Below, in pieces: positions 1 to 22,983 of a DNA stretch of 64,000 nt. Where the stretch lies: positions 17,608,860 through 17,672,859 of the forward strand of contig NC_135244.1 of NCBI RefSeq assembly GCF_947623445.1, read 5' to 3'. This stretch comes from Clavelina lepadiformis (Eukaryota; Chordata; Ascidiacea; Aplousobranchia; Clavelinidae). The position numbers and the translations under genes were made by a program. How positions within the stretch are numbered: the first letter of the stretch is position 1; each line of letters starts with the position of its first letter. The notes below the pieces were generated by a model. The model was not told the DNA's origin. It saw only the letters and a program-made list of their open reading frames with translations, and did no database searches.

Positions 1-2545
1 AGCGCATTTCACCAACATCCGCTGATGTTACTATCGTAGAGCCGTCAGGACTGGTTTTGTGCCAACTAAATCGACTGAGTTACGAAATGTATATTGTACC
101 ATGGAAAGGTACAAGTATATCACATTGACTAAACATCAAGGTGTATACAAATTCTAAAAATTTATTGCAAAAATATTAACAACCCACCTGCCTTACTCAG
201 ATACTTGGGACAAAGATGTTTGCAAGACAAGCTCTCCAGAGGTGGAAGAAAGCGTAGCAATGTACAGCAACAAGACAGACGCTGAAAACGGGGTAACGTT
301 ATAATATGAAAACCATTCCTCAATTTATAGACCATACCTGAAATTCTGCATGTGCTTACCATATACGTCACAACGTTATATAACAGAGTATATTAACTTT
401 TGCAGGCCGTATGCAGAGAGAGACAAGGCGTTCGGCGGTGGACGATTTTAAATCTCAAACCAACGACAAATTATTGTATTTTTGGCAGTTACGATACAGA
501 TCTTTTAATGAACAGCAACGGACCTAGTCCCGATGCTTACGTGAAAGTAAAAACTCCCTCAGGTAAACTACAAAACCATCTAAATTTTTAGTTTTTATCT
601 AAAAGTATTCGAGCAGTAGTCGAAACAACGGTAGGCTATAGGAGGCGTACTGGTCAAAAAGAAGATTTGTCTGATTTGCTTAGACTCTTACGTAGGGCTT
701 TAAAAACCTGCTTATATCAATCATAGGGCAGCATGGTTGGTGTTGTGTTTTTAGCCTGGGAATTCCTCTAGCAGTTGGCTCGTTTCAAAGTTCCAAGCTG
801 GATAGAAATTGACATGAAAAAGTAGGAAAAGTGTGTTATTAGGCCCAAAAGTCCACTTTTGATTTCCGGTCCAAGTACTGTAATTTCATGTAGAGATTTG
901 TAATTTTTGCCATATTTTAGTATGTGATGGAATCAGGCAAGCCTAGTTCACATTTCAGGGATTCTCATCGAGCGATTTTCGTGTAATAGCATTTTTAATA
1001 ATTTTACTTCATAAAGAAATAAATAAAGAAATAGACGTTTTTTGAAACCCATACGCCTCCTATAGCGTGTTAGCATTGCAGTACTAACGTGTGTTCTAAT
1101 TTCTGACTTAACTCAGATAAGAAAATATTGATTGCGATTGTCGTTTCATCGGTTGCTGTGCTTTTGGTTTTATGTGGTGGTGTAGCGTGTATTTTGCAAC
1201 AACGTTTCAAGAAATTCATGGAAGCTTGCTGGGGCACTTTGCCGTCCTATACGGTAATCAATTTTCATCTGTTTTTTTATTCTGTTTTCTTTTTTCAAAA
1301 CATAGCAACTCACGATTCAGTTGCGGCTATCACGCGCTTTATGCTGCTATATGTACAGTACATAATTGAAAAAAATTAGAAAACTTCATTGACTTGGTAA
1401 TAGGCTACAGTATATACTTTTTATTTTGCTTTCCATTCCAGATTACTATTCTCAACGATACCTACTAGTAAGTAAAAATGCAAAAGCAATTTGCTGTTTA
1501 TTTCTTTCGTTTCTCCCTGCAATGTTCGAAATGCTGTGAATTTTATGGTGACAGCAGTGATGAAAAAAGTGATTACACCGATGGCCAAGCAGAGATCTGG
1601 TCACCCATGTTGGAAAAACAAGACATGCAAACGCATAAAGTAGCAAAAAACGGTCGATTTGAAGAAGAGCTAGTTTGCCAACCAAAACTAATCCAGTCAG
1701 TACAAGAACAAGAATCAACTACTCTTCCAGCACCTAGCCGGATGGATGTAGCAACAAGTAAATGATAGTCTTACTGATTGTGTTTGTCACCCAAAAAGTC
1801 ACATAAAATCAAACCACGTTCATTGATGCTTTTATAGTGCTTTCGAAGCATGTTGTAAAAGCCATGCTACCTTTTACGGCGGATTGTTTTAAATTTTTAA
1901 GATCACCGATGTAGTTTGATCGAGGAAGATAAAAAACATGCACAAGCTACAACAAAAATTTTTGAGGAAGCTGTTGTAAGAGAACAAACAGAAAATGCAA
2001 CCGTTTCATCAAGTAGAATCCAGTTGATTCATCAACTGGAAACCACTTCGGTAGGAGAAGAATGTATCGCGACGGCTTCAACCGATTCGGAACAGGAACG
2101 TCCTCTGATGAATGACGAAGAATACCGGTTGTAATGGAAAATTACATTTGATTTATAAGTTATAATTCATGTTGCAACACGCTTTAATCGGAATTATTTT
2201 AATACTGCCTGCTAAGATTTACTTTTGAGATTTAAACGTTCCTTGTGTAGAGAAACTATTCCTCGTTACCAAGATGATCAAACCCAAAACGAAACATCCG
2301 ACACATTACCGGAACAACGAAACTATATTGCTAGTAAGCCTATATAACATATTACAAAGTTTCAATTTTATTCGGTTTTCATTTTACTTACAAGTTGTAT
2401 TCACTTCTTTTATATACAGTAGAAACAGTAGTATACAGTACACAGTTTTCGTATAGTAGTATACAGTAGTTTTCAGTTGTTTTCTCACTTTCTTACATAT
2501 ACAGATTACAGTAAAGCAGACCAATTTACGGACTACCACCGATAG
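1..2545 (+). CDS. Class II cytokine receptor-like gene 1 (5' part outside window)
   Basis: This is the 3' part of a single-pass receptor gene. Exons I can place: <1-108, 201-292, 406-562, 1117-1253, 1442-1467, 1555-1757, 1902-2130, 2251-2333 and 2505-2545. They join in one frame giving 357 residues before TAG. The first three exons form the membrane-proximal fibronectin-III domain, with the LKPTTNYCIFG strand typical of class II cytokine receptors. Exon 1117-1253 encodes the membrane helix and a WGTLPSYT stretch just inside it, a possible Box1-like JAK site. A 26-nt micro-exon and four tail exons follow, ending FTDYHR. The tail exons are supported by the same exon order and phases in gene 2. 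The signal peptide and first domain lie left of the window. AATAAA motifs occur at 2723 and 2746. Receptor role is inferred from family; the ligand is unknown. Confidence 0.8.
636..1065. mobile_element. MITE-like element with terminal inverted repeats, in an intron of receptor gene 1
   Basis: The segment starts with ctataggaggcgtac and ends with the inverted counterpart tacgcctcctatag, about 430 bp apart, with no open frame between. This is the layout of a non-autonomous DNA transposon. I could not settle a target-site duplication, so the superfamily is open. It lies in the intron between the second-domain exon (ends 562) and the membrane exon (starts 1117). Confidence 0.55.
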
Positions 2546-3948
2546 AAACAAGCTGAAGAAACCTTTTCTTCTATTTGCCGTTCAGATCCGTGACTTTTTT
2601 GATCTGTCCTCTGCAAGATGATTTTCTAAATACCAGCAGGCAGGATAGGCATTGGGAATAGGATGACGAGAGAGTTGATATGGAGATCGTCTAATGTACA
2701 TTATAGCAGATACGCTGAAATTAATAAAACATTTAAGCTACAGCTAATAAAACATTTAAGCTATTTAAGCTAAAATTGTTATGATTTGTCCTCTTTGCTC
2801 CATATATATACTGGAAATCTTGAACATAATGTTTTGTCATAGAACTTTTGCATCTTTAACACCAGAAAGTATGGAAATATTTTGAATTTTGAAAATTGTA
2901 GAAACGCGCATTCACGTTGGCGTTAAACATATACTTAAAACTATGTATAAAATATGAATTGCACTGAACTGTACTGTGTTGTGCTTTGTATGAAAAAATA
3001 AGAAATCTCTTGGAATGAAATGAGGTAGAGACAAACTGCCATGGAACAACTTATTTAAGACTCTTAAAACTCTTAAAACTAACCATAAAAATGTTAAGAA
3101 ATGTCAAAACAAATTGAGAAAATACGACGTTTTACACTACAGAGTATACAATTTTATTTTGTGTGTTTGGCCGCCTTTCGTATGGTTTTGTGTCTCTTTT
3201 ATATATATTCTTGATTCAGAATCGATTTTATATTAAACCAAACATTTATTCAAAGGCAGCTGTGAATATTTGTTCAGTTCAGCAATATGTCTCCAAGAGT
3301 TTGCCTCTGTATTTAAAGTGATCGCATAACCAGCACACTTCAAGATAAATATTTTTTAGCTTTACTTCTTTATTGTGGAGCTACCTGTCAAGTGCTAGCC
3401 TTGCAATAGACCATCGGGTGTGTTTCACGTAAAACATATCACGAGCTTTTTCCTATAGGCAATCCAATCTGTTTCCACTATGAAATTTCGTTGTCTTCAT
3501 TTCATTCAATTTTCATTTCACTTTCTCGACCACACCTAACCCATTTGATTGACGTTATTGTTATCATGTATAACTTAATATCGTCTAAAATCCAAATCAA
3601 TGTATTTTTCTAATACAGTATTTTTAAATGGCGCTACAAATTTTCAATACCTTACTTAGTTGTTTTTATTGAACCACTTCTAGAAGCAGCAATACATTTA
3701 AAATAATAAGTACCAGGCCTTTAAACACGTTTAACAATTTTTAATTATTTGTGTTATTTTTTCATTTTGTGATGGATCTCTAAAGAATCTTCTAAACTTC
3801 GTAAACTGGAAGTGAAGAGCAGTTTGCGTCACGCGTGGCGTCGATCCTTGCACTGGGAGAGAAAACTGCTCAAAACTGTCGTTGAAGACATAGATTAAGC
3901 CTGCCAGGAAGTAGACGTTTATGCTGTTTCAGGTATATGAAATATTAG
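2546..3948. other. Intergenic region between the convergent receptor genes 1 and 2
   Basis: About 1.4 kb lies between the two stop codons. It holds poly(A) signals for gene 1 (AATAAA at 2723-2728 and 2746-2751) and a candidate for gene 2 on the minus strand (3665-3670 on the plus strand as tttatt). I see no further exon or RNA gene. Confidence 0.6.
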
Positions 3949-6872
3949 TCACGAATTTGAGCTGGGGCCAGATAAAAACATCTCTTCGGCTTGTGTCATT
4001 CCTTGGTAGTCTCCAAACCGCTCTGCTGTAGCGTAATCTGCGAATGCAAGAAAAAGAGAAAGTCAGTGAAAAATTCTTCTACGATTGTCTCTTGCAAAAT
4101 AATACCAATAAATACTAATAAATACCAGCAATAGAATTTTCTTCTTCTTGCCCTGTATCGGAGGCTTCACTTTGGTCTTGGACGTTTTCTTCGCTAATAG
4201 AAGATTCTCTGTTATGAAATAAAGACCCATTAACACCACATGCATTTTTCACAAAAATAAAACTAAACTAGGCCTAATCACACAAATAACTAAACTGAAA
4301 ATTGTTTTCCTTACGAGAAGCACTCATCATCGTTCTTCAAAGTATGCTTCTGTTCCGTGTCGGTTGAAACCGCGGCAATACAAGCTTCTGGTGCCGAACT
4401 AGTCGCTATACTTAATGAGTCAGATACATTTATTTTATTTGTTTGTTCGCTAGTATCAGCTTTTTCAGAAGATTCGGTTGTTGCTTGCTGTATACCTGTT
4501 CCATTTTCCTCCTTCATTCGACTTTGCTGACCTTAAGACGACAAGTCAAAATGTACCAATGTACGTTCTTTTGTGCTGCACCTTTTGCAGATGATTTTAG
4601 GCTTAAAACAAAACCAAAAATTACCGTTTTTGCTTGTAGCCACAACAGTCTGGCAAGGCGTTAAAGAAAAATTTGACATTCTCCCTTGATCTAAATGGCT
4701 TGATTTCTGAATTGCTGGTGGTTGTTCAGAGTGTGAGTTCTCTGCGCGGGACGTTAGCAGATTCTGTCTTTCCGGTGACCAGACCTCTGCTAGGCTTTCT
4801 TTGTAATCATCTTGAGCATCATGGTCGCCATTCCTGAAAATCCAAAACAAATCGAACATTGCGGTGCAACCTACAGTATAAAGAACTGGAGACAAAAAGA
4901 AAATTGTTCTATTTTTTTTAATTACCACTTGGTGCCTTCGAAGATTTCTTCCTAATTATAAAAACAAGTAGGATGATTAGTTATACATTAATTCATAGAG
5001 CCTGCATATATCGCATTCCGATTATTCATCACAACACATAATACGCTATTATAATACCAGCACCATATGCGCTATATGCTTCTCTCTCGGTTATTAAGTA
5101 TGGCTTAGGAAAATAAATACGACCAGAGTTTTAACGTAAGTTATACCGTATAGGACGGCAAAGTGCCCCAGGCGCCCATGAATTTTTTGTAACGTCTATG
5201 CAAGAGAAATGTGACACCACCACATAAAATCAGAAACACAGCAACCGATGGGACGAAAATGGCAATCAGCAGTTTTTCATCTGAAATAATACAGAAATAT
5301 AAAAGATTATTATGTTAAGGATTTTCTTTAATGAAAAATGAATACATTATAATTTACCTGCTGGCGTTTTTACTTGCAAGTAAGCCCAACGACTCGGTCC
5401 ATTTTTGTTCAACGTATGATCTGTATCGAACCTCCCGAAAACACAATACTTTGTTGCTGGCTTAAGATCAGGGACCGTCCACAACCGAAGGCCTTGCCCT
5501 TTCCTGCAAGCGGCCTGTAAATTTTTTCAACAAATTTCATGAAGAGATTTCAATTTCATTTCATGTCCCTGACTAAGAGTACGCACTGCAAATTAAAACA
5601 CGTTAAATCTAAGGAATGACAATCTCACTAAAAATTACCCCGCTTTCAGTGTCCGTTGTATTGCTATACTTTGCTATGTATTCTTCCACATTTGGGGAAA
5701 CCGTTTTGCATAAGTTCTTGCTCCACGTGTCTGAGCAAGGTCGGTAAGTTAATTATCAATTAGCGGTTGTTTTAGTAGAAGCCAACGAACCTATATGTAC
5801 TATATCTTTAGGATCTGATACCTTTCCATGGTACAATGTACATTTCGTAACTCAGTCGATTTAGTTGGCACAAGACTAGTCCTGACGGCTCTGCGATAGT
5901 CACATCAGCGGATGTTGGTGAAATGCGCTCCAGGACTATATTGGGTTTGCTGAAATGAGCTGAAAGAAATTTATAAAAATGGTTTAATAACTAAGTTTGA
6001 GAAATCAATTTACAAAGATTAAAACGATATTTTTCTCGGATAAAACATTTCGATTAATTTCTACAACTCACTTTGCCAGTTTGCATCTATCCTTGTGATT
6101 GGTTGTTCCAATGGCGTACAAAGTGTTGAAAGATTCGTGTCTTTATTGACTGCATATGCACACACTTGATAAAAATCTGCCAAGTGATAATTAAGAAGAC
6201 GTCATGGAATAAAAAGGGTTTGTCAAAACAAATCTGTCTTTTCATGAAATAATCAAGGGATAACGTCACAGAGGAAACAACACAAAGAGTTTGACTTTTC
6301 GTCAGATCTTATCTATTTGCTTACATGAACTTTGTAAGTCAATATCGGGAATGCATTGGTACATTTTTCCTCTTTTCTTTACTTTGCAGTTGTGACGTTT
6401 CCAGCCTGACCTGTCTGCAGAGTGTTTCCGACTAAAGTAGCGACAACAACAATTTTATTACAAAATATTGTTCCAATGAAATGACGTTATTCTTCTGACT
6501 TAGACTTTGACTATGTTAAACTTATCTCAAAGATTTGTTGGTTTGCGTATTACAATACAACATATGTATTACAGTTGTACGCACTTTGTTTCAATGTCGT
6601 ATGTGACTTTGATTTTAGAAAAACATTTCCGAGGTTTCCAAGTCACATTAAGCTTAAAATCAATGATGCTCCAATCTTCTACTCGTGGCCCTATATAGTT
6701 ATAGAATTCATGATAAATGTTATATTAAAAAAAAACTTCAAGAACTTTACTGTTTACCTCTGCACTTTGCTGTTTGCTTTTCTACATCCTCATCAGCAAA
6801 CGTTATACTTGCCACCATGAAGGCCAGAGTCAAGCAAAGCAAAGAACATTGCAATAACAATTTCAACGTCAT
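3949..6872 (-). CDS. Class II cytokine receptor-like gene 2, long tail
   Basis: Complete gene of 13 exons on the minus strand: 6872-6758, 6690-6585, 6431-6325, 6176-6072, 5959-5822, 5730-5639, 5514-5358, 5280-5147, 4951-4926, 4833-4625, 4531-4315, 4208-4126 and 4037-3949. They sum to 1578 nt (525 residues) in one frame. Residues 1 to about 26 are a signal peptide. About 39-144 form the first and 145-273 the second fibronectin-III-like domain, each with paired cysteines. The first opens with PRVEDWSIIDFKLNVTW; the second has LKPATKYCVFG. Residues about 274-318 carry the membrane helix and WGTLPSYT; the rest is an acidic tail rich in Glu, Ser and Gln, with a late tyrosine motif FGDYQG. Intron phases run 1,2,1,1,1,0,1,0, which is the class II pattern as I recall it (1,2,1,0,1,0) plus two extra phase-1 introns. 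The partner and ligand cannot be told from sequence. Confidence 0.85.
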
Positions 6873-8328
6873 ACCTGGGTGGAAGGCTCAGCTTATAAAT
6901 AATAACTTGTTCTAAATTTCACTGTACGTTTGATGTAGAAGCATATTTGTAGATACCTGGATGAACGAAAAATGTTGATACAATAATCAGGGACTATAAC
7001 AAGTCATACTGGACAATAATGAAAACCGTTACGTGCAAGGTATTGGGTAGGCCAAGTGGGACAAAAGCGCCTGATTGCGGGCGCTTAGGCGTTTTAACAA
7101 AAAGCAGAGTTGTGGGTTGGGATCGTTTTTAGTCAAAGTACTGTAGACTGAAGCGTTGCGTAGGGCTATGTAGGTATGAAAAAGTTCAACATGCATTTTG
7201 ATGAACCTCGTGCATAAATGTGCAACACTTTCCACCATATGGATTATATATCGGTTTTTCGTTACAGTCTACTTTATAGCTTAAGCCGAGTTTGCAACTG
7301 CAAGTGCATTGCAGCCGCCAGCCTACACAGTACACAGACTAAAACTTTTCCGTACACTTTAGCAAACAAAAATCACAACCTACCACTCCACTTTATGCGC
7401 GTATTGCCTAGTTTATGTTCCGCTTGGTTAACCCAGTGCCTTACAGTCTTACACGTAACGATACCCACTTTTGTCTAGTATGGCTTACCGTAAAGGACCG
7501 CTACTACTACATCAGAAGCAAGTTACTCTATTTTCTTATTTTACCACAACTCTACTGTATTTTAATCATCCCGCTTTTACATCAAGGTGTGTCTTCATTA
7601 CAGACTACAGCAACCTGCCATTGGACCAGCTAAACCTTATCAATTCTGATTCCTATAGATGACTAATGGAGGTTACGTCACATATTTCTGTCTCATACGT
7701 AGGAAATGGGAAACTAGAATGCAAACTTAAGGCAAAGACTGTTTACATAAATGGAATCCTAAATTAAAATTGAGCATTTTGTACTGGGCCAATATTTGAT
7801 GCAAACAGCCCGTGACCACATTTCAAAGAAATTTCTGTTTTTCTTGGGCCTTATTCTGGAACTCTCTTTCTAAACCATTTCTAAATCCTTAAACTTCAAG
7901 TCTCTTGATTGAGCACAGTATAAATTCCTTTTCGCAACGGCGAAACTGGCGCGGTTTACTGTCGTATACTTTACCTGGAACTCTGTTAATGTGTAACCAG
8001 TGACGCGTGGGTGTTCTATATTCTTTTCAATTGAAAGACATTCAGCAATGACGGTAAACAAAAATAAAGTTGGTTTCGAAATATGTTGTAATAAGTTTTA
8101 AAACTGTGACCTATTTTGTTGTAAGTTTATGTTAAATGTATTGGAAAATCTGATTGCACGTCGTATCCTGATGCAAAGAGTTACAACAATCATTGAAAAA
8201 ATCAAACAATTAAAATGATTTCAGCGGCGTTTATTTTTGTAACTTTTCGTTGTTCACCACTTTATTTCAGTAAAAGGAGTTCCCCGGTCTGTTACCTCTT
8301 TCCCGTTGTTCTTTGAAGATTTTCTTAG
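6873..8328. other. Intergenic region upstream of receptor gene 2
   Basis: This contains the promoter side of gene 2, which starts at 6872 on the minus strand. I see no recognised gene. A short minus-strand stretch near 7975-8025 encodes HPRVTGYTLTEFQ, which resembles the opening of the first receptor domain in genes 2-4. It has no proven splice context. Confidence 0.4.
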
Positions 8329-8579
8329 CACGTCTATTGTGTAGCATCGACGATTATAACGACAATAGATGTTTTCGAATTAAAAACGGCGTAAGCTATA
8401 GTCCTAAAAATATAATTCTATACTCTCTACCTTATATATATTGGAGACGACACAAAGCATGGATGAAATGTACATTTACTGACTGCACGTTTCAGAAACA
8501 TTTCGAAAGTCTTGGTGTATTTAAAAAAATTCACGTCATGCTTAGTGTGTATAATACAACGGGAAAAACAGTACAAAAA
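8329..8579 (+). CDS. Orphan exon: class I cytokine receptor-like first domain
   Basis: An open frame here is bounded by a pyrimidine-rich stretch ending in ag (8327-8328) and by the donor AAA|GTAAGT at 8580. Read in phase 1 it encodes about 83 residues with two cysteine pairs: LLCSIDDYNDNRCF, then AWMKCTFTDCTF, and a closing HVMLSVYNTTGKTV. C-x9-C followed by C-x4-C and a late YN-TGK strand is the layout of the first cytokine-binding domain of class I receptors (gp130/LIFR type). This is on the plus strand, opposite to genes 2-4. I found no companion signal-peptide, second-domain or membrane exon nearby. It may be one exon of a gene with long introns or a relic. Confidence 0.4.
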
Positions 8580-9306
8580 GTAAGTATCTTATATGACACT
8601 GCTGCTACAGAGCGTATACCTTGCAAGAGATACAATTTTAAAAATTTTATTCCAACGTAAAAAGTCTCATTAAGTTCCGCTTATACAGTATAAAAAGTAA
8701 AACATGCGCAGTATGACAAGCCTCATTTAAAACATTGCCTCATTTAAAAAATTGCTCGGTTAGAAAAGCGTGGACTGTATACTACTATACTGTTTAGAAA
8801 GTCCAAATACGATGTTTCACGTTAACGTGCTTAAGAGTGATGGCTCGCGAAAGGGAAGAAAATTTCCACAACCGAGGTATAAAAACGGTTCATGTGAAGC
8901 TCATAACGATACTTCATGCAAACAACATTCAAATGAGTGAGCAGTGTAAGTGGTTGCAAACAAGTAAGATATGTTTCTGAAGTTTTGTTATGACGTAAGT
9001 GCATACGGAAAGACAAACAGCAACACAAAATCGAAATTGTGCATAAACAATACTATACAGAGTAAGAAATCTTCAGGCAAAGAAAACTCGAAAAGCTTGA
9101 TAATCGTAAATTATTATGCAAAATACTATTGTTAGAATTTTAAAGTAAGATTTTTTGAGACTTTGAGGAGCACACAAGTATAGTTATAAAATACCGATCA
9201 AAGTTCACCTTAAATATGGGAGTTGAGTTTAAAACATAAATCAGCTATAAAAATGAGATGTTTTACCGAGAGTCGACATCCAATAAATGCAAGGTTAAAA
9301 CTTTGC
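8580..9306. other. Intergenic, no gene seen
   Basis: This lies between the orphan plus-strand exon and the last exon of receptor gene 3. I see only short out-of-frame ORFs with no splice support. Confidence 0.5.
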
Positions 9307-12300
9307 TTAATTGCATGCGTCAAATTCGCCTGACAAGGGCAGAAGCAGTAGCTCGTCCGAGTTACGCTGAGATGTCAATTTTTTGCAAGTTTCTCTCAAC
9401 ACGGTTTCGCATCCAGGCAAGCACGGTTTATCGGAGACAATCACCGGAAAATTTCGAAATTGATTTTCCTCGTTGCCCCATTCTTCCTGCGATGTCCTAT
9501 CGCGAAAATCTGTAACCTTCGAGTAATCTGGGGCTGCAACAAAAAAGGGCACGAAAGTTTTACACAGTAGCTATACGTCACTCATAGAACAATTGCATTG
9601 TACCCCGTATTGTTTGTAAAAAGTTACTTATCTGTACAGGCATATCATTACAGTTTTAATTGCTCGTCAAAGCAAGAGCACGAATATATTCCTCATGGTT
9701 TAATACACTTTAGTTACTATAATAAATAGATATTTAAACCGTTAATAATTGCTTGTATACGATAAAAATCGTGAAATAAATACATACCGGAAATGGTATT
9801 TTCCACTTCCGGTGATAGATTTTTGTCATGCTTATCATTGGAAAGTGTTGGTTTTGAACCATAATTGCTTTTGAATCGTTGGTTGCTTTGCCTGAAAAAA
9901 ATAAATTTAAAGTTCGAAGTTGAATTCAAACTATCTATATCTCGAGCAATTAAAGAACATAATTGCCCGATTTTCTGTGTATAATAAAGTTGCGTACTGT
10001 TTTTTCTTCAAGCTTTCAACCGTTTCTAAGATCAGGCGAGGAGCCGGCATCATTGGTACCATGGAAATTCCCAATGACTGAGCAGTGGAGCTGGATTCTT
10101 GCGACGATCCTTCGCTGGTACTTCTAACTTCTGACCACTGGAAGGAGGAAGAGGTATCACCACCATCATCGGTAAAATCGTGACGTGTTTTGTATCCCGA
10201 TAGTTGGCTGTCAGAAGCTTGATCAGTGGTTGCACATTGCGCTTAAGTTTAAATATGTTAATGAATTGGTAACCTGCAGCTCAGGAGACCGAAACCATTT
10301 TTATCATTTGGTTGCCAACAGTGACAGAGCTTAACCTAACTAGTCTTCACTTACCATCTCTGTTCATATTTTGATCGATCTCTTTGAAAACGTTGAGGTT
10401 TGTAATCACTGCAAATAAAACAATTCGTCTTTGCACTAATTGTTACAAAAAAATGAGACCTTTCAATCCATTTTGAACCAAACCTTCACTTAAGTCGTTG
10501 GCTGGCTGCGAAAGGAGAAGTGCAGGGTTGGGTTCAGTAGCTGCACATCGAGGGTAAGCTACAGCTGCCGTCGAATTTCTACTCTTCTTCGTTATGACAG
10601 GTATGTCTGCTAGTTCTCTGTCTTCCTGGCGAGTTCTGCAGAATTGATATTGCTCAAAACAAACTTTCGTTTTTAATTCATAAAACTTTCTCGACGTTAA
10701 GTTTTATAAAAATATTGTACTCAGCTGATTCGAAAGTATTCTTACATTTTATTTGAACTGTTCATGCTCTTTGCCTAAAGAGACAAGTAAATAAACTCAA
10801 CAAATAAATACAAACAAATGACAAACAAAGACAGTGAATATATAAATTACATATTGTAAATGTTAAACGTAATTAAACATTTATTATAAGATAGGCTGTT
10901 TATAAATGTGTAGGCTACCAGACAGATACAGCATATTTCAATATTAAAAGACAAAAATATGATACTTTCATTTAGATATGGTTCTCTACAAAATTGACTT
11001 GTTGCACCACCAACCTCCGCTAACTTGGGAGTTAACGTTTTATCTGTCTTCCTTATCCTTCTGAAAGCCATGCATGAGATAATCAGACCAGAAAAAAACA
11101 CAAATCCGCAGGCACAGATTAACCCAACCACGATTCCTGTATTCGATACTAAACAAAACATATAAAAACGAATAGATTTACAAGAGAAATTTACGTAACG
11201 GATATTACATGTTAAACCATCATGTGAAGTAAACATTACAATAAACGCAAGGCTGCTTCTATACCGTATAGTAGGATACCATAAGAAGCAGTGTCACACG
11301 AATTGTTCAAATTCTTTGTTATAAAAATGTTGAGCGAAAAGGTTGTTTTATTAGCGTACTATACTATATACAGTAGATCTAATATAGGTGGTACTTAGAT
11401 ATATTCTACTCTATACAAAAACGTAATAGATCAGAGTCGTAACCAAGTCATCAAACCCGAATCGCAACTCAAGTGGAGTCATTTGGCAAAAAGACTCGAG
11501 TCAAATCGAGTCAATTGATATGGAAAGCGAAGCCAGCATTCAAAAAGTATTCATTCAGTTTTGCTGCCCCGCAAGAGGTCTTAGACAAATTTACAAATTT
11601 CATTTCAAGCAACATTTCAACATGTTAGAACAAAAGAAAAAATCGTTTTGCTAATGCTGAAACTTAATAAAAAAAACTAACTCGTGTCACGTCAAGTCTT
11701 AGCAAAAACTGACTCGACTCATTTCGTTTCTGGTAGAAACATATAATTTTTGGTTTTACCATAGTCTTCAAGGTATATACACAACCAAACATAGAGTCGG
11801 GCTATACTGTACGGTTAATTTTGAAACTAATATTTGACCGACAATATTACTCGAAATGCAAACTCAGATAAAATCACGCAAACTAAATAAAAATGTCAAG
11901 CAATTTTGCAGATTTTTGTTTCCACTAAGTTATTTGTTACAGACGTAAAATGATGAAATGAACTTCACAACCAGTTAAAATAATTACTAACTTAACATTT
12001 ATATTAGAGCATATGTTGTAATTGTTTACCTGGTTTTGTTTTGACGAGTTGAGAGGCGTAAGGACTCGTCCGATTGTTCCAACTAACGTCTGTGGAGTAA
12101 CGACCATAAATGCAATAATCTCTTTCCGGTTTGAGGTGAAAGAATTCAAATTTTTCAACGTTAGCTCCATCTTTATTGCAACTTGGGTTCTTTTGAAAGC
12201 AAAATATTTGCAGTAAAAAGATAAATAAGCCCAATCTCGCTGTTTGTTTAGAACCAGTTTTATTTTTTAGATCTGCACTGTTAGTTTTAAAATGTAGCGT

Positions 12301-14146
12301 AAGTATAAGGGAATGTTTTAATGTCACAAAACTTCTTGCAGAAAAAATATTAAATGTGGAAACGTTTTGCATACCTTGCTGTCAGTGTCAGAAATATTTC
12401 TCCGTTGTGCTATTTTATCCGTTTCATTGGCTGCAAAGTAAATTGTCAGTTATCCAGTGCAGACACAGTTTGTGTTTGAATACACAGCATGCTTATACCA
12501 TAAATATTAGATACATCATAAATTTTGAATTTATTTATTGTACCGTTGCATGGAATGACGTACACTTCGTAATCCAGTCGCTCATATTCGCAAAGAACAG
12601 AGCCGGTGGGCTCTTTTATATTTACTGCAATACTAGTAGGCGAAACATCCAGAACGGTGAACTTGGGTTTGCTGAAGCTAGCTGCAAACACAGAGTGTAC
12701 TCTGGTGTTTTCGAATGAACGAGGAACATGTACAATTTACAAGAAAACTTAAATAACTAATCAGCGTTACAAGGTATCAAAACCTAATTAGCTTGACACT
12801 GGGACACATCACGGTTAAAACCTCAGTTTTATTTTCGACTATAGACTTACAGTTATAAGAAAACAACTGAGAACTTAACAATCATGTTCTTGGCCTAGAA
12901 AACTTTTTTGAACAGTTTTACTTACTCGCGATACGCAAATCGATCTTGCGTTTGTGCGGTGGAAAACGAGTGCAGGAGATGACTTTTTGATCGTTTTCTT
13001 CGTAAGCGCAAACCCGATAAAAATCTGTTGAATTTAAAGCAAACATTCGTCTTCAGAATATGACAGTTCAAATAAACTGAGCCATCTCAGAACGTCGGTG
13101 AGTAAACTATATTATATTATATCTTACCTTATCTTACGTTACCAGAAAACTATTTTATCCATCTAAACTTTAAAATGTTAGGCAAAAGCAATCCAGCAAA
13201 TATATGTATATAGGTGCTTTATTTTTAGTATTCTTTGCTTTTATTAAAAATTACGATTTACCTACATACACTTTCATAACAAAGTTATAATTATTTTGGC
13301 CATTTCTATTTGCTTACAGTCCTGGTAGAATTTGATCATTGGGGTACAAGAGTGATTTCTGCCATAGTTTTCCACTTCACAGGAGCGCTTTACCCAACCA
13401 TTTTTGTCCAACCGATATATGCTGTGGTGAAACAGCAAGCAACAAATAATATAAATTTGCAAGAAAGGCTTTTTCGACTATTTGTAGCCTATACCGATGC
13501 ACTTTGCCGATATACATAAAAGTATATACAGCCTTTATGATTTACACAAGTGACAAGTCACGATTTAGTTCGATATATTTTTATATAAAAAAGTATCAGT
13601 ATAAATCGACACAATTTCTAGACCACGTAGCGCTCTGCGCTTGCCAGTAAAATAAATTTAGAAATAACTGGTTTGCAGGTAGTTGCAAGATAAAACGGCC
13701 AGTACCTGTCTGTTTTACTCGTGAATACAATCTCATCCGCCAGAGATTTTTTGACAATTGTATACTGTTCATCAAATCTTATACAAATAAACGGCAACAG
13801 TAGGCTTACAAACGCACGTTGTTTAACTTTCCTTTACCTTGTTTCTATATCATAAGTGACGTTCCATCTACTGAAACATTTTCTTGGAGTCCACGTTACG
13901 TTGAGCCTGAAATCTTCAACTTTCCAACGACGCACTCTTGGCCCTAATTGCCGTTACAAAAACATGAAAATGATTGAAGAAATTGCCGTATCGATAGAAA
14001 TTATACAGCAAGGTATACTTATCATACTTAGACATAGCATATATAGTATCATACTTACCTTTGCAAGTTTTGTTTCTTGCTTTTTGGACTTCAGTTGACG
14101 TTACTAAGATTACAAGACTTAATATTATTATTATTAAATTCCTCAT
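9307..14146 (-). CDS. Class II cytokine receptor-like gene 3, long tail
   Basis: Fourteen exons on the minus strand: 14146-14059, 13943-13838, 13421-13318, 13024-12926, 12681-12544, 12430-12375, 12189-12030, 11148-11015, 10774-10746, 10635-10484, 10408-10355, 10241 to about 9998, 9891-9788 and 9533-9307. The signal peptide (about 1-20) leads into two fibronectin-III domains (about 30-132 and 133-250). These carry PRVRRWKVEDFRLNVTW, WVKRSCEVENYG, FYRVCAYEEND and LKPERDYCIYGRY. The membrane helix is in exon 8, followed by RRIRKTDKTLTPKLAE. The tail has a Ser/Gln-rich exon and ends with a 75-residue exon starting APDYSKVTDFRD, related to the last exons of genes 1 and 2. The 3' boundary of exon 12 is uncertain: donors at about 9998 and 10139 both keep the frame, and the longer form matches paralogue exon length. 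With it the protein is 564 residues. Potential N-glycosylation sites: NVT, NHS, NRT. Confidence 0.78.
11425..11740. repeat. Dispersed repeat rich in gactcgagt-type words, intron of receptor gene 3
   Basis: The intron between the second-domain exon (ends 12030) and the membrane exon (starts 11148) contains repeated actcgagtc/gagtca words on both strands, for example near 11500 and 11710. Clusters of this kind occur in non-autonomous hAT elements. I could not define termini or a target duplication, so only a dispersed repeat is claimed. Confidence 0.3.
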
Positions 14147-17064
14147 TTATAGTTTCTTGGTATGCAACTTGTACCAAAACATTTCTTGACAAATTTTTGA
14201 TGAAGTAGCTACTAGTCTATCATTTATGATTACACGTATTCCTTATGCATAAAACATCATAAAAAGGGACCACGTGACTATGGTACCCGCTAAAAGCAAA
14301 ATCACATCGCTGATTTAAAAATAAACCGTCGATATCAGAAATAGAAAGAATAACAATGGCAATGAACGTATCCTTTTCAAAAGGCAAGCTCAACATAAAT
14401 GAATCATCTTTTGTGACTTGCAGTTTATTGATATAAACAACGCTCACTTTTGACGTAGACAATGCTGCTAGATTTGGTTATGAATGATACTAATAAAAGT
14501 CAGCAAAAACATTTCTATCTATTCTTCAGGTACTGTACATAGTCCACCAACAACAAACCAAGCACCGTATTACTTTATAAGTCTGCACGGACATCAGCAG
14601 GCTCTCTATCGTAGCAACTTAAATTTTAACTGCGAACCTTCCAGGCTATGAAGTTATGGCTATGAACAACTCTACTCAACTAATACACCGCGATAACTTT
14701 ACCTACATGCCAAAAGTAAGTTGTCTAAGTTTAATTGCCAAACGCCCGTTACGCTCTACATAATGTGCTATACAGTCGCAGAAGCATGACAAAATCTGCC
14801 CAAAACTGTATTTATCTTCGATAGTCGTACGATAAAATAAAAGTTGTAGGTTTCTGTTTGGAAAGTTAAAAGCAAACAGAGAACTTTTTTTCTTTGAAAT
14901 GGCATTTATAATTTTAAGCCTTGCTCGCTAAAAGATGGCAAAAGTTTAAATGATAAGGGTTAAATATTTTCCTCACACATATATCACCGAGCTGTGCCGG
15001 GTTCGCAGAGCTGCACTAATCACAACAAAAAGCATTTGCAGTAAATATTTCACTATTAATCACTGATATGCCTCCCCCAACCTGACATTGGCGGCTACAC
15101 TACTTGAGCTGAATGCTTCCCACTTTCAACCTTTAAATTCTAACCCGAAACTGTCAATATCGTTGAACGTATGGTGTAAAATATCCTCGGCTTACGTCAC
15201 TCTCAACATAGAAAAGGCGACATGGTGGTTTTTGATCAACATTATTAACCCTGTTAATAAGTAACTATATGACGCCACTGGTGATTACAACCATTCTAAT
15301 CCAAACACAATGAAGCAGAACTACAAAGCACACCTGCCTTTGTAAGATAAAAGCCGAATATCTTTATTTATAGCTATGTTGGCTTGTATCATTAACCTTT
15401 GGTTCTTAGCTTTATTTTAAAAGATGGCTGTGTCATTGAATTTATACCTTTATGTAAGCGTCTGACTTTAGATAACAGTAAAACTATACTGTAAGTAGAA
15501 CATATATATGTTTTATTCAGTTTCCAGCAATAACTTTTTTTTCTTTAAGATGATCCATTTTCGTGACCGCACAGCAAACATAGCTGACGTTGTTGTAGCC
15601 TACACTGGGTTTGTGATAAAAGAGATTTATCTTTTTCGCCCGGGCCTGTATGTTTATACAATATCTTTTAAAGTTTAAGCTTTGGCAAGCAACAGAGGAT
15701 TTTGCAAGTGTTCATTAATATATCGCTTTTAAATTGGGGTTTTGCCAAAATGTTTTCGTCTCGACACGCTTGCATTTTTGATTACAGATCAAACAAGGGT
15801 TTTACGCCTATTAACTCATTTTAAAATTTTATTTTGACTAACTGTGCCGACGCAGAAAGTTCTACAGAAACGATCTGTTTGCGTAATGACGAAGGCTGCA
15901 GAAACCGTACGATTAAAAAGCTACAAACAAAGAGAGAAATACTCGAAAAATCACTGCACAGTTTTACAAATTTAGTACGAACCGAAACGACAGAATAAAA
16001 CTTTAAAACGCTTTTAAAAACAGGTTGTCACTTTGAACTGAACAGACAGTTGTAAATATTCTTATTCTTTAATTGCACAGCTTTAAGAGACAAGAACTAA
16101 ACTAAGCTGCAACACAACAAGTAAAATTAAACAAAAGCATAAAAAGGAAACTGGTAATCTTAGAATGGGGAATCGTAATCACGCAAACTGAAAAGAACTG
16201 AGGAGCTGAACTGAGAGCAGCATTGGCGTGATTACGAGGTATGCGACGAAGCTACAAGGGGCGTTGATTAAGGACCACGAGGAGCGTTGCATTAATCATT
16301 ACACACTTTTTAGTTGCTTTCCAAACATCAAATCGAGACCTTAAAAATGAAGCATTACTAATTATCAATTAATTATCAATCGAGCAATAATGTATTTTCC
16401 GGCAAAGCATTTTAAAATGTCAAAAAATTTGCAATTGTGTCACCAAACCAATGATTAAATGTTTAGATAACGATGAAACGAACAAAACAAAAATGTTGAC
16501 AATTCAGTAACTAAAATTTTGACCACCACGAAAATCTGCTGAGAACCGTCTCGTATCTTGTGAAAATGGTTTTGATAAAAAAAAATTTAACAATAGGATA
16601 TATATTTGTTGTCTGACGTATGGTTTTCTTTATAAATTTTACGGCTTATGTGGCTTTAAGTGCAAGTGCGATGAAAAGTTCATTTTCAACGAAAATATGC
16701 ATTAAGCATACTATAATTAGTACATAAATTCCAATGAATGAATATATGATACGTTTAAGAAAGAGCACAAGAGCAAACAGTAGGTTGATGGTTGTATATT
16801 TACAGTACTAAATCTTCGTTTCCACTAAATTGCTAATTCATAGTGAAGGATGTTTGACAGCAGCAAGTAAGATGTAATAAAATAAGGTTATAATTTTATT
16901 TCTGTTTAATGCTTACACGAGTAGAATAAAACTAAAATATTGCCATAAACGGCAGTTAAGAATGTTAGTACAATATTACGGATTTTGATTTATTTTTAAG
17001 TTGCAATTAAGGTGCAAAGGCAGTCAAAAAGCATCCTAAATGTGACAGCAACTGATTTCAAACA
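14147..17064. other. Intergenic region between receptor genes 4 and 3
   Basis: About 2.9 kb separates the start of gene 3 (14146) from the stop of gene 4 (17065). It should contain the gene 3 promoter and the gene 4 poly(A) site. I recognise no exon, RNA gene or transposon in it. Confidence 0.5.
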
Positions 17065-20000
17065 CTACACTCGGTGACCAAATTGATCATTGAACTTGGC
17101 TACTGAAGTAACTCCGTCAGGGTTTAAACGAAACGTATGAGTGTCGATTCCTTTAAGTGCAGAAGCTTGTCCGAGTTTCCTTGATGTGTCCTCTTGCCAA
17201 AGTCTGCTTTTTTGAGTAAGCTGTAATAAACAATTCATAAAACTGATTAAAACTGACTGCGTTTCAAAATGACTCTTTTTACACAATCGCAGCGCTTGTA
17301 CATACGATTAATGTAATTTGCTTATATATATATATGTATATATATACATTATACAAGAACTTGTATCATATATGATACAAGTTATAGTGAGTACCAATAT
17401 ATTTCTAGAAACCTCTGCTATTTTTGGTGTCCATTTCTTTACAGCTTTCCTAATTCTCCTGTAAGCTATACAAAAGATGGTGAGTGATATGAGAAATAAA
17501 AATCCGCAAGAAGCCACTATCACAACTATCGTTTCGTTACTGCTGCTGGGTACGTGCTCGTAATAGTAAATCTCTACATGAGAAATATAAAATTTTCAAA
17601 TCAACGATCACAAAGCTGCACTGCTTAGCAACACTTCGATTTTAATTTAATAAATGGTCAAAAAAATCTTTATAAATTCGAAAAACTTGCGGGGTTACAT
17701 TTATGAGATAAATGACGGTTATACTGCATTTATGTCTCAGTATATAGATACTGTTTAGTGTTTTAGTTTACATTGTATAGTATATTGCAAAGCGCTGAAA
17801 TAATTAACGGTTTACAAAAATGTTGTATGAGCTAGAACTTTGTATAGATGTAGATCATTGTAATTTCTGAAGTTAGGAAGTTTTTCTCAAACTCTCGCAG
17901 TCAGGCAAGTATACGATACAAGTGTGTGATTTTGGTGCTTCCACGCTCATGAACTTTTATAAATTAATGTTGAACAATATTTGTAGTTCCTTTGCTTCAA
18001 ACGTTGGCAGAAGAAAAAGCGACTTTTGCAGTGTTAAAATTTTTTTGAAAATCAATAAAATTTAGCATAGCATATGGTTACCGGGAAGTGTTGTAACATT
18101 CAGTTTGGCGTATCGACTCTTGTGACTGTTTACTTTGACATCTGTCCAGTAACGACCAAAAACGCAATAATCTCTTCTGGGTTTGAGTAGAAAGAAATTA
18201 AAATTTTCTCCGCTTTCTTCGCAACTTTGGTTCTATTAAAACCAAAACATATTCACGCATGAAATCTTTCTGTACAATAGATTATTAATTATGTACGTTA
18301 ATACAAGATGATTACGTTTTTCAAAATAGCTATAGTTTTACTGTTTACTATTATTTACTGTTTGGTTGTTAAGTTGAAAAAAGAAACTTCTCGCACAAAA
18401 GCTTTTTCTATAGTTAAAAAGCATGTGTTTAAAAGTATATATATATATATATATAAGGTACCTGTACCAAATAAGGCCCACCTAACACTTTTTTGAAAAT
18501 AACTCAAGAACCTCAAATGAGAATAGACTGAAAAATCGTATTCTATTAGTGAGAGTATATAACTACAACATATTAAAACCACAATACCTGACAACCCCCT
18601 AAAAATTATTATAAAGAATTTAAAAATACCAAAAAATGGGCCTTATTAGGAGCACAGGCTCCTAATAAGGCCCACCAATTTTGTGAGTATTTTGATTCAA
18701 AACATAGCTGAAAAATCGCATTAAGCAAATAAAACAAGACAGCAACCACCAATTTGTGTAAGACAACGACCAGCAAACGTGGGTTGAAAACTTAAAGGAA
18801 TGCGACCCATCAGCATAGGTGCAGCAGGCGGGGGGTCACCGGCCCCCCTAACCGTCATTAAATACGCAATTTTTGGGAAGTTCAAAATTATTTGAGCAAT
18901 TTTTGGTACTTTTTCTGGCATATTTTGTAGCAAGGACCTTTTTTCTTTTTTGGGGGGATTAGCCAATCATCTTGCATGGGCCTTATTAGGCGCATCTGGC
19001 ATCCACGAAAAAAATGTCACATTTTTATTATCAGAAAAATTTTAGCAAAAAAAAGTGCATTATCCTTTTCAATACTAAGTTGGTTGTTACATGAAAACTT
19101 CAGCCGGCTGACAACAGTTCATTAACCGGCCAAGTTCTCACTAACTTTTTTCTAAATTAACAAAACCGCCTTAACTGCAAATATCAAATTTTTGTTGTGC
19201 TCTAGCGAATCGGTTGATCACGTGACAAGGATGAAATCTGGTAAACCATCATGAATTTATATTAGTTTTTATATAGGGATAAAATTTTTCTTTTATTTGC
19301 ACGGGTTTGCGAAATATGAGCAATGGGCCTTATTAGGCACAGGTACCTTATATATATATATATACCTTGCTGTCTCCACTGGAAATGTCGACACGTGATA
19401 ATCCCATTTCCATTTTGCTGTCTATTAGATAAAACTATAATTCATAAATTTTTTGTACAGAATACAGATCCCATAAATACTGTACATTTTGAAAAATTAG
19501 TAATAAAAATCTCACCGTTGCATGGGACGACGTACGCTCGGTACAGCAGTCGATGATATTCGCAGAGAATATGGTCGGTGGGCTCCTTTATATTTACAGA
19601 AATATGAGTGCGTCCGACGTATGTTGCTGTTATAATTGGTTTGCTAAAGCGAGCTGATAAAGACAGAAAAATTTCGTTAACTGAAAACGTAAATTTAAAC
19701 ATACAGTGACCACAGAATACGGTAATTAAAGTTACTGCTAATATTATTAGATTGCATGTTGTTATAATCAGTTGGTTTTGCTTATAGTTGCAAAGAAACG
19801 TCATTTCGCTGTTATTACCAATACAAAAATAATTAAGGATTTTCAAACGAAGCGCAATCTAATAAACTCACAAAGCAACCAACTTAATATTGTTGTTAAT
19901 TTGTTATTATCTAATGATCCGGCGCAACTGAATATAATTTAAAAAGCACTAACATTAAACTTAAGATTGTTTCTTGGATCAAGTTGTTGCTGACTATATA

Positions 20001-21130
20001 GTATATTTAATACTAACTCTCAGCACGTAAATCAATCTTGCGCTTGTGATGTGGAAAAGGAGTGCAAAAGATTGCCTTGTCATTTTTGCCGTAAGCGCAA
20101 ACCCGATAGAAATCTGTAGTGAATTTTCACACAAAATAAATATGTGCACTAAAAAACGACAGCTCAAAGGAAGACTTAAAGCTCCATATCTTACAGATGT
20201 TATAACATCAGTTAACATTTGCCCACTTGTTAGTTTCGCTTAATTGTAAAGTTTACTGCATATATTTATCAATTTTGTCTATAAAACGTTACTTGATGAA
20301 AACAATTTTGATATGAAATTTGTGAGCATTAAATTGCAGATAGCAGCAGTTATTTTCAACAAATAAAAAAATGAATTATCTATAAAATTTATAAGAAATA
20401 TAGTTGATTTATTTAGACTATTTTTATATCGGCTTACAGACTTGATTGAAGTTGATAGCTGGGATACAAGAGTAACACTTGCCGAAGTTTTCAACTTCAC
20501 AAGAACGTTTTTCCCAATCGCTTTCGTGTATGCTGTTTTTCAATTTTTATTAAAATATTACTTAGTTTGATGGAAATTAAAATTTAAATTAATTTTAATT
20601 CTTTATTTATCTTGATTTAAATTTTTGTTTTTTTAACTAAAACATAAACTTAAATAAATAAAAATAAAATGGTATAAGATTATTCAAATTTATCTAAATT
20701 TTTACGATTTTAGTTTAAATCACGAGGCCTTTACAACAAGCAACAAGTGATTTTATGGGAATAAAATACATGGAGTACGAATAAGTATAACTGAGTAGGT
20801 TTCACACCGGTAACCGTTTTACCTTGTTTCAATATCATAAGAAACATTCAGGGTTTGAAAGCATTTTCTTGGAGCCCAGGTAACATTTAGCCTGAAATCT
20901 TCAACCTTCCAGCCACGCACTCTTGGTCCTATACGAGTACAGTAGTCAGGACATGAGAAAAAATTTCAAGAAATTTAGGTTGTTCACGTTTGTTGTCAGG
21001 GGGCAGTAATGCAGTATTGTAATAAAGCAACTCTATTATACTTACCTTTGCAGATGTTCTTTTGCGCGCCATAAACATGATTTGTCGCAGACAAAATAAG
21101 AAAACTGCTGAGTATTATTAAATGTTTCAT
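17065..21130 (-). CDS. Class II cytokine receptor-like gene 4, short tail
   Basis: Nine exons on the minus strand: 21130-21046, 20928-20823, 20532-20438, 20113-20018, 19653-19516, 19421-19366, 18232-18082, 17573-17413 and 17220-17065. They total 1044 nt (347 residues) with no break. The signal peptide is about 1-21. The first domain (about 29-127) has PRVRGWKVEDFRLNVTW, KRSCEVENFG and FYRVCAYGKND. The second (about 128-242) has ARFSKPIITATYVGRTHIS and LKPRRDYCVFGRY. The membrane helix (exon 8) is followed by YRRIRKAVKKWTPKIAE. Exon 9 then ends the protein after 51 residues with no tyrosine. Exon order and phases equal gene 3 up to the membrane exon. The missing tail exons suggest an accessory chain or non-signalling receptor (inference). 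Exon 8's acceptor was chosen because it is the one that preserves phase 1. Confidence 0.8.
18455..19349. mobile_element. Non-autonomous DNA transposon in an intron of receptor gene 4
   Basis: The left end reads aaggtacctgtaccaaataa and the right end, inverted, aaggtacctgtgcctaataa, giving roughly 30-bp terminal inverted repeats about 895 bp apart. Both ends abut TA-dinucleotide runs, so a TA target is likely but a duplication cannot be distinguished from the run. The word ctaataaggccca recurs inside (near 18660 and, inverted, near 18978). No transposase is present. The right end stops about 15 bp from the splice donor of exon 6 (19365-19364 on the minus strand). Confidence 0.7.
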
Positions 21131-22983
21131 TTTGTTTGTTCGTTATGCGACTTGTACCGAATCATTTGTTGTAAAATATTTAATAACGATATTTATTTTG
21201 ATTACAATTTAAAATAGACATAAGCAGTCAATTTTTCCATCTTCTGAAAGCAAATCAAAATGTTACAGTAAATCAGAAGTGGAAAGTAGGCTGTCGTTGG
21301 CATTACACCAAAATGGTAACGGCCAGGAAAATGTCTTTGTCCTAGGCCTACGTGACTAGGCCATCGTTTACGAGTTTACGTCATCAATGACCTTTTCAAA
21401 GATAACCCATTCTGTGTTCACACTGGATATATGCTGTTCAATTTAATTCGCTGTAACAGGCAATAACAATGTTTACTCGGCAGGCCTGTTACTTTACTTT
21501 CTAGTTATAAAACACAAAGTACTTTAAACTTCAAACGTCAGCTTGCCATGTTCAGCATTTAACTTGCGTGGATTACTGGTAACCTTATAAAAGGTTGCGA
21601 AACAACCCGACTTAATTTGTAATAATGTACAGGCCTAGATATAACCGACTATTTCATACTAAACCAGGTGCAGGGCTACAAGAAACAAATTTAAGACAGT
21701 CTTGTTTATGCAGCTTTTCATATCAGCAGAAATTGGTGTTTTTCCACCAAAGTATTCCCTTTTCACTCGTTTGTAGTATTACCTACTTAAGCCTTACACA
21801 AATTGCTGTATAGGCAGGCAATGTAAAGGCCTGTACTACCGAAACTCAGCTTCTGGTTTGTCAAACTTAAAACCAGTGGACAATAAACAAAGGCACAAAA
21901 TGTACATATTATTTTTTACGCAGCATGACAAAGGTCGAAGTATGTTTATCCGTTGTTAATCTTGCATTCACCAATAACGTTAGATTTTGTCTGATAAAAT
22001 TTAAATATTTTCCTCTCTCTCACACACACTTTTGAGTATTATCTGGTTCTTGAAGACTAAACCAACTGCAACCTGTAAACGATCAGCTTATATTTTAGGG
22101 ATTGTTTTTAGCCTATACGCTTAACCTATGCTAACACAAGCCTAAACAAACGATATTGCGTAACGATCGAGTAACATTCTTTGTTTATCTTATTACGTAA
22201 TCATACGCAAAACGTTTTTCCAGTCCGAGTTTGGCAAATGAAATATTTCATTTTTGCAGTTCTTTTGTTAAGCCAATTTAAGATTTAGTTTTGCCACTTA
22301 GTGTCCACATTTCTTTTTGTCATGCACTTTTGCAATAAGGTTGCTAGCGCGAAATTTTATATGGCAAACAACTGCTTGGAAGATGAGGATGTCTGATAAA
22401 AACTCTATAAGCGATTGTGCAATAAAAATCTTGTGTGAAAGTACTTTGGCTCAAATTTTTTATTATTTATCCAAATTCAGCAATGCGTTTGCCTGTTTTT
22501 TACAATATTTAACAAAGTTTGTTTTTGTTTAACAATGTAATTTGGCATTTAGCGATAATGATAGTCAGCCGCCAGTTAGCGGTTAATGTCAACCGGTCAA
22601 TTTCTAAATAAAATTTCCGTTTCATTTCAAATAATAATTGCAAAGTCTAAAGACAAGAAGTTTTTAGAAAACGTCTCGCCTTACAAGTTTAATGGGAATC
22701 GAAACAAAAGAATGAAATCTCAATAGTTTTGACATAGTTTCAAACAATGAGCAATTGTAACATTTTTCCGCTTTCAATTATCTCATCAAGAGTAACACAT
22801 TACACTTTGTGGCATATACTACTTTTGCTTCGAAACAATTTTGATTTGTCATTTTTAATATTAGAGATGGGATGACGATTTTCAAAGAGTTGTCGGGTCA
22901 CTTTCAAAATTCCCTTCAAGCAGTAAATATATGTTTATGACTGAATTCATGTTGTTTTTGAGTGTTTGAACCCCCTCAAAAAT
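21131..22983. other. Intergenic region upstream of receptor gene 4
   Basis: I see no exon, RNA gene or clear repeat. The minus-strand promoter of gene 4 should lie just right of 21130. Short ORFs here lack splice signals and similarity I recognise. Confidence 0.5.

Follow-up and report, generated by a model that had tools for sequence, protein, structure and literature searches.

The DNA analysed here (64,000 nucleotides, hereafter the window) covers 17.61-17.67 Mb of a 24,617,235-base contig, chromosome 5 of the light-bulb sea squirt Clavelina lepadiformis, an ascidian, and its left end carries four paralogous receptor genes, g1 on the plus strand followed by g2, g3 and g4 in tandem on the minus strand. 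These genes, and two divergent relatives on chromosome 8, are very probably tunicate class II cytokine receptors, that is, members of the family that includes the interferon and interleukin-10 (IL-10) receptors and tissue factor, as judged from predicted gene models and with a signalling role that is presumed. The class II homology is well supported by the comparison of sequence profiles, although it stays below threshold with standard tools. On this reading, the receptor side of an interferon/IL-10-type system would be older than the vertebrates.

A first-pass annotation, made from the sequence alone, had proposed a cluster of four paralogues in an invertebrate chordate, each with a signal peptide, two cysteine-containing domains, a membrane span and a tail; the spliced models of all four genes confirmed this arrangement, and the source is indeed an invertebrate chordate. 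To build the models, conserved peptide cores were marked and a script picked the best-scoring GT/AG boundaries that kept the frame open; alternatives existed, and all junctions are predictions, the uncertain ones being junction 9 of g5 and several tail junctions. Signal peptides and membrane spans were assigned by eye. In each of the four genes an N-terminal hydrophobic exon (the signal peptide) precedes three exons of the first fibronectin type III (fn3) domain (D1), three of the second (D2) and a single membrane-span exon. The receptor genes and their parts are the following:

-840 (L001:9160) to 2545, plus strand: g1, 13 exons, splice model
-840/-723, -647/-542, -455/-349, -247/-143, -29/108, 201/292, 406/562, plus strand: g1 exons 1-7
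1117/1253, 1442/1467, 1555/1757, 1902/2130, 2251/2333, 2505/2545, plus strand: g1 exons 8-13
1..2545, plus strand: part of g1 inside the window, the remainder of exon 5 plus exons 6-13, which are D2, the membrane span and the long tail
1117..1253, plus strand: g1 membrane-span exon, ending in LPSYT (presumably box1-like), phase-0 intron next
6872-3949, minus strand: g2, 13 exons, 525 amino acids, long tail, splice model
6072..6690, minus strand: g2 D1, exons 2-4 (6690-6585, 6431-6325, 6176-6072), one row of six in the D1 profile
5358..5959, minus strand: g2 D2, exons 5-7 (5959-5822, 5730-5639, 5514-5358), one row of six in the D2 profile
14146-9307, minus strand: g3, 14 exons, 564 amino acids, long tail, splice model
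12926..13943, minus strand: g3 D1, exons 2-4, splice model
12030..12681, minus strand: g3 D2, exons 5-7, splice model
11015..11148, minus strand: g3 membrane-span exon, ending in TPKLAE, phase-0 intron next
21130-17065, minus strand: g4, 9 exons, 347 amino acids, short tail without tyrosine, splice model
17413..17573, minus strand: g4 membrane-span exon, ending in TPKIAE, phase-0 intron next
C8:15042075-15045429, minus strand: g5, on chromosome 8, 11 exons, splice model
C8:15035522-15039440, minus strand: g6, adjoining g5, 11 exons, splice model

The start of g1 lies about 840 bases upstream of the window; the signal peptide, the complete D1 and 30 bases at the beginning of the first D2 exon fall outside it (-840 to 0, L001:9160-10000). 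Intron 6 of g4 contains an element of about 0.9 kb (18440-19364), bounded by terminal 41-base inverted repeats that are 95% complementary and run into TA repeats, which looks like a non-autonomous DNA transposon.

The two relatives on chromosome 8 came from searches of the genome (209.06 Mb, 95 contigs) with the proteins of the cluster. All the matches obtained with g3 (18) and with g4 (20) fell within the four cluster genes; the search with g2 gave 22, including a weak one on chromosome 8 (E = 0.27) that led to g5. In turn, g5 gave 13 matches: besides its own exons, there were three from which g6 was found, two within g1 and g2, and a single weak one on chromosome 6 (E = 0.22). The last was discarded as a chance match, since the surrounding 9.9 kb held no second family exon (best E = 0.2). 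The family thus counts at least six genes, of which g5 and g6 are divergent members with the same intron phases as the cluster genes. The idea of a local family homologous to the interferon/IL-10 receptors or tissue factor stands as regards the homology, given the profile match described below, and has to be given up as regards a purely local family. Inspection by eye of the open reading frames that flank g5 and g6 revealed no recognisable synteny with vertebrates.

The first eight introns have the phases 1,2,1,1,1,0,1,0 in all four cluster genes, and in six of six when the chromosome 8 pair is included (predicted junctions throughout); for g2 this is exactly the series that had been read from the sequence beforehand. 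Ectodomain ratios of nonsynonymous to synonymous substitution rates (dN/dS) in the three pairs tested were 0.36 (g1-g2), 0.39 (g3-g4) and 0.29 (g2-g3, where dS is 1.99, near saturation), so that the ectodomains are under purifying selection. As exon order and phases are the same in six genes and ectodomain dN/dS lies between 0.29 and 0.39, these models represent a gene family and not a chance assembly of frames. According to a passage in PMC8863823, most IFN-upsilon receptor 1 genes show the phases 1-2-1-0-1-0, like other interferon receptor genes, in agreement with the series that the first-pass annotation had recollected for vertebrate class II receptors. The Clavelina series, written as 1,2,(1),1,(1),0,1,0, contains the vertebrate one, and from this the Clavelina genes would have one additional phase-1 intron in each domain, as had also been suggested; such introns could be a gain on the tunicate side or a loss on the vertebrate side. 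Only one intron position was compared: the phase-0 intron of D2 lies 19-24 residues ahead of the F-strand Tyr-Cys in the six genes, versus 18 residues ahead of Tyr185 in tissue factor, if the intron of the latter follows residue 166, as a passage in PMC7362520 would imply in stating that the alternatively spliced form of tissue factor is without exon 5 and retains the first 166 residues.

We compared profiles because Pfam gave sub-threshold matches only, and the homology claim rests on this comparison because tests with single-sequence hidden Markov models (HMMs) were weak for four of the six genes. The class II target was built from ten vertebrate ectodomains, seven of them checked against PDB chains; the class I set (6 rows) and the fn3 sets (2 and 5 rows) are small, and these sets are the harder control, while column shuffles, which destroy local order, are an easy null. 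The profile of six Clavelina ectodomains matched the class II profile with a probability of 96.2% (E = 2.5e-9, score 64.7), columns 4-206 aligning with columns 9-186 collinearly through both domains, against a maximum of 22.8 among 100 column shuffles. With the seven PDB-checked sequences only, the score was 62.2 (95.8%, E = 7.4e-9). The match also grew as genes were added, from 41.5 (82.3%) with four to 57.5 (95.1%) with five and 64.7 with six. In comparison, the class I profile scored 30.4 (22.8%) in an alignment that was not collinear, D1 being placed on class I D2, and tandem fn3 domains scored 22.2 (two rows, 3.0%) and 21.7 (five rows, 1.8%). Taken alone, D2 matched class II D2 at 84.5%, class I D2 at 4.8% and a single fn3 domain at 19.0%; by this comparison D2 is clearly of the class II type. 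When the six-gene HMM was run against 10 class II and 6 class I receptors mixed with 16,000 shuffled sequences, IL20RA came first (E = 2.4e-5), followed by IL22BP (E = 0.0093, on a par with one shuffled sequence) and tissue factor (E = 0.019); no class I receptor and no further class II receptor was among the 22 matches listed.

Several observations weigh against the class II assignment. Searches with the families that the first-pass annotation had named did find Tissue_fac and Interfer-bind matches, all of them below the Pfam gathering scores (27 and 21 bits, respectively), the best reaching 16.3 and 17.6 bits. For Tissue_fac these were g3 (E = 0.0087 with a 295-residue protein, 0.048 with D1 alone), g6 (E = 0.010, equalled by a match to its membrane region) and g5 (E = 0.054, its sole match); for Interfer-bind they were g3 (E = 0.024 with the 295-residue protein, 0.0047 with D2 alone) and D2 of g2 (E = 0.041). 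Thus, g3 had two Pfam matches, one to each family, while there was no class II match for g1 (searched whole only), g4 (whole and by domain), whole g2 or D1 of g2 alone, and an unrelated OB-fold model (E = 0.02) outranked Tissue_fac when D1 of g3 was searched by itself. A class II HMM run against 12,006 sequences placed g3 at rank 1 and g4 at rank 3, with g6, g5, g2 and g1 between ranks 39 and 179, and a class I HMM on the same set placed g2 at rank 2 and the others at 84-643, none significantly. PDB sequence searches with g3 or with the four-gene profile gave nothing relevant. The cysteines also differ, the D1 pair being CX10C in g1-g5 and CX11C in g6 versus CX7C in 9 of 10 vertebrate class II sequences; no cysteine follows the D2 F-strand Tyr-Cys in any of the six genes (the F-G pair is missing), a region with one cysteine in 9 of 10 vertebrate sequences. 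Among the profile comparisons, the class I score exceeded the best of its 100 shuffles (19.6), D1 alone scored 26.9 on class II D1 and 26.3 on class I D2, and when six of the ten class II sequences were picked at random, 20 times over, the scores ranged over 25.0-71.1, with one draw under the class I score. Finally, a search of the genome for ligands of the IL10 and Interferon families gave no matches, and this search has no power to show absence.

The Tyr-Cys of the D2 F strand itself is present in all six genes. With 10-14 cysteines per ectodomain, other pairings beyond the class II pairs must exist. Searches of the whole genome with the Tissue_fac and Interfer-bind models also returned no matches, which we attribute to exons having been scored one at a time, and from which absence is not deduced. 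Other matches were set aside: Psg1 on g2 (E = 0.00093, sub-cut-off, residues 250-307), which covers the membrane span, and the only PDB matches, which were to ribosomal protein uL13 and to chemerin with E values no better than 0.077 and were taken as chance.

The genome contains components with which class II receptors could signal. Chromosome 5 (L023:709-4047) and chromosome 1 (L024:3219-6632) each carry one JAK-like gene that consists of an uninterrupted reading frame of more than 1100 codons; both show FERM_F2 above the cut-off and two kinase stretches, and one a sub-cut-off SH2 match. It is possible that these intronless frames are retrocopies or the outcome of intron loss; an extract of PMC3296744 reports one JAK in Ciona. 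In addition, there were 4 matches to STAT SH2 exons on three contigs and 15 to IRF exons on four contigs. In the receptors, a proline occurs among the final seven residues of the membrane exon, right before the phase-0 intron, in all six genes, and we take this motif to be box1, the JAK site. From the presence of these genes and this motif, we infer that the receptors use JAKs and STATs. The number of tail exons after the membrane-span exon is five in g1 and g2, six in g3 and one in g4 (the range for g1-g3, g5 and g6 is 3-6), with nine, four, four and zero tail tyrosines in g1, g2, g3 and g4, respectively; a search for remnants of a long tail near g4 gave nothing better than E = 0.69.

These features bear on the possibility that the proteins have the class II fold and do not signal through JAK-STAT, serving instead in adhesion, as decoys or, like tissue factor, as cofactors of a protease. 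The sub-cut-off Tissue_fac matches in three of the six proteins, the short tyrosine-free tail of g4 and the failure to find an IL-10 or interferon family ligand, in searches without power, would fit this explanation, but the long tails of g1-g3, g5 and g6, spread over several further exons where tissue factor has no such tail, the membrane-exon proline in six of six genes and the JAK and STAT genes in the genome make it unlikely.

The class II reading must also be weighed against an origin outside class II proper, in which the genes would be stem or class I-derived two-domain cytokine receptors that resemble class II through the shared absence of WSXWS. The two classes do resemble each other as profiles (score 70.5), D1 taken by itself hardly separates class I D2 from class II D1, and the class I score of the whole profile stands above its shuffles. 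Introns do not separate the classes either: class I receptor genes have a phase series largely like 1-2-1-0-1-0, and for this reason the phases speak more for membership of the cytokine receptor superfamily at large than for class II in particular. Over the whole ectodomain, however, class II is preferred to class I (64.7 versus 30.4), the class I scores fall to just 16.0-28.5 when one row at a time is left out, and neither WSXWS in D2 nor CX9-10CXW in D1 occurs in any of the six genes, as opposed to five and six, respectively, of the six class I sequences. We therefore consider a class I or stem origin quite improbable. Descent from an unrelated tandem fn3 family, of cell adhesion or other function, with a likeness to class II by fold only, is very improbable: it could draw on the low sequence identity to class II receptors, on Pfam scores that are all sub-cut-off and on the value of D2 alone against single fn3, but both tandem fn3 scores lie under the 23.3 reached against fn3 by one of 60 shuffles (made with the four-gene profile only), and domain order, phases and the apparently near-identical place of the D2 phase-0 intron are those of class II.

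Under the class II reading, the signal peptide would direct each chain to the membrane, where a helical cytokine would be bound at the elbow of the two class II-type fn3 domains; after the single membrane span would come a box1-like JAK kinase site close to the membrane, and then the cytoplasmic tail. The long-tailed chains g1, g2, g3, g5 and g6 may signal via their tail tyrosines and STATs, and the short, tyrosine-free g4 could be an accessory or decoy chain, a division of labour like that between the R1 and R2 chains of vertebrates. Under this reading the receptor family would be at least as old as the common ancestor of tunicates and vertebrates. The interferon-like signalling arm that the first-pass annotation had suggested is a good hypothesis. 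We propose more tentatively, as a possibility that we would not yet favour, that a complete class II arm operates in tunicates, with a helical cytokine whose sequence is not yet recognised, long-tailed signalling chains, g4 as a short accessory chain, two JAKs and STATs, so that an interferon/IL-10-type system would have existed before vertebrates.

With the vertebrate class II receptors (IFNAR, IFNGR, IL10R, IL20R, IL22R and the fish CRFB), the Clavelina genes share the signal peptide, a pair of class II-type fn3 domains, a single membrane span and a tail, together with phases containing 1-2-1-0-1-0, the whole-ectodomain profile match and the absence of WSXWS. They differ in the extra phase-1 intron of each domain, CX10-11C in place of CX7C in D1, the lack of a G-strand cysteine in D2 with other cysteines present, a tail that is divided among several exons in five of the six genes, Pfam scores under threshold and the lack of a known ligand. 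Tissue factor (F3) has in common with them the sub-cut-off Tissue_fac match in half of the genes and an apparently near-co-located D2 phase-0 intron; in contrast, its tail is short and bears no JAK site, whereas five of the six Clavelina genes have long tails. The class I receptors (gp130-like, and CLF-3 in Ciona, in an extract of PMC1963337) likewise have two fn3 domains, a membrane span, JAK-type signalling (presumed in Clavelina) and part of the fold, but the Clavelina genes lack their WSXWS and CX9-10CXW motifs and score much lower against their profile.

The same extract of PMC1963337 mentions two class I receptors in Ciona. Passages in other papers place the first members of the IL-10 receptor superfamily in lampreys (PMC8226699), state that interferon responses do not occur in tunicates or amphioxus (PMC8218723), and locate IL10R in ray-finned fish in a survey with tunicates among the taxa searched (PMC9857879). 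In the open-licence literature, as far as its accessible passages go, we found no report of tunicate class II receptors; subscription papers and automatic annotations lay outside this search, and priority is not established. Since no match reached the usual profile cut-offs, earlier misses are understandable. If the assignment is correct, ascidian class II receptors place the emergence of the receptor side of the interferon/IL-10 system before that of the vertebrates, tunicates become an outgroup in which the origin of these receptors can be studied, and named genes are now at hand for seeking the oldest ligand.

Apart from the receptors, the window contains a tandem pair of class-III aminotransferase genes (25115-27474 and 30824-33166), beginning about 4 kb to the right of the cluster; one open reading frame of each matches Aminotran_3 (E = 1.2e-49 and 5e-51). 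We take them to be AGXT2-like. If they are AGXT2, the gene that presumably neighbours PRLR in people, their place would favour the stem or class I-derived origin weighed above; this argument from shared neighbours was not used here. Transposase remnants at 22970-23443 and 38875-39484 correspond to a Tc3-type helix-turn-helix (sub-threshold in Pfam) and a Harbinger-like nuclease frame (identified by eye, part of it tested without a Pfam match). Farther to the right, from 41275 to 63000 and in L004, repeated exons resemble tandem SLC22-type transporters, recognised by eye; three open reading frames were tested and had no Pfam match. To the left of the cluster (L002, L003), repeated open reading frames with caspase-like stretches, recognised by eye only, are probably a tandem caspase family.

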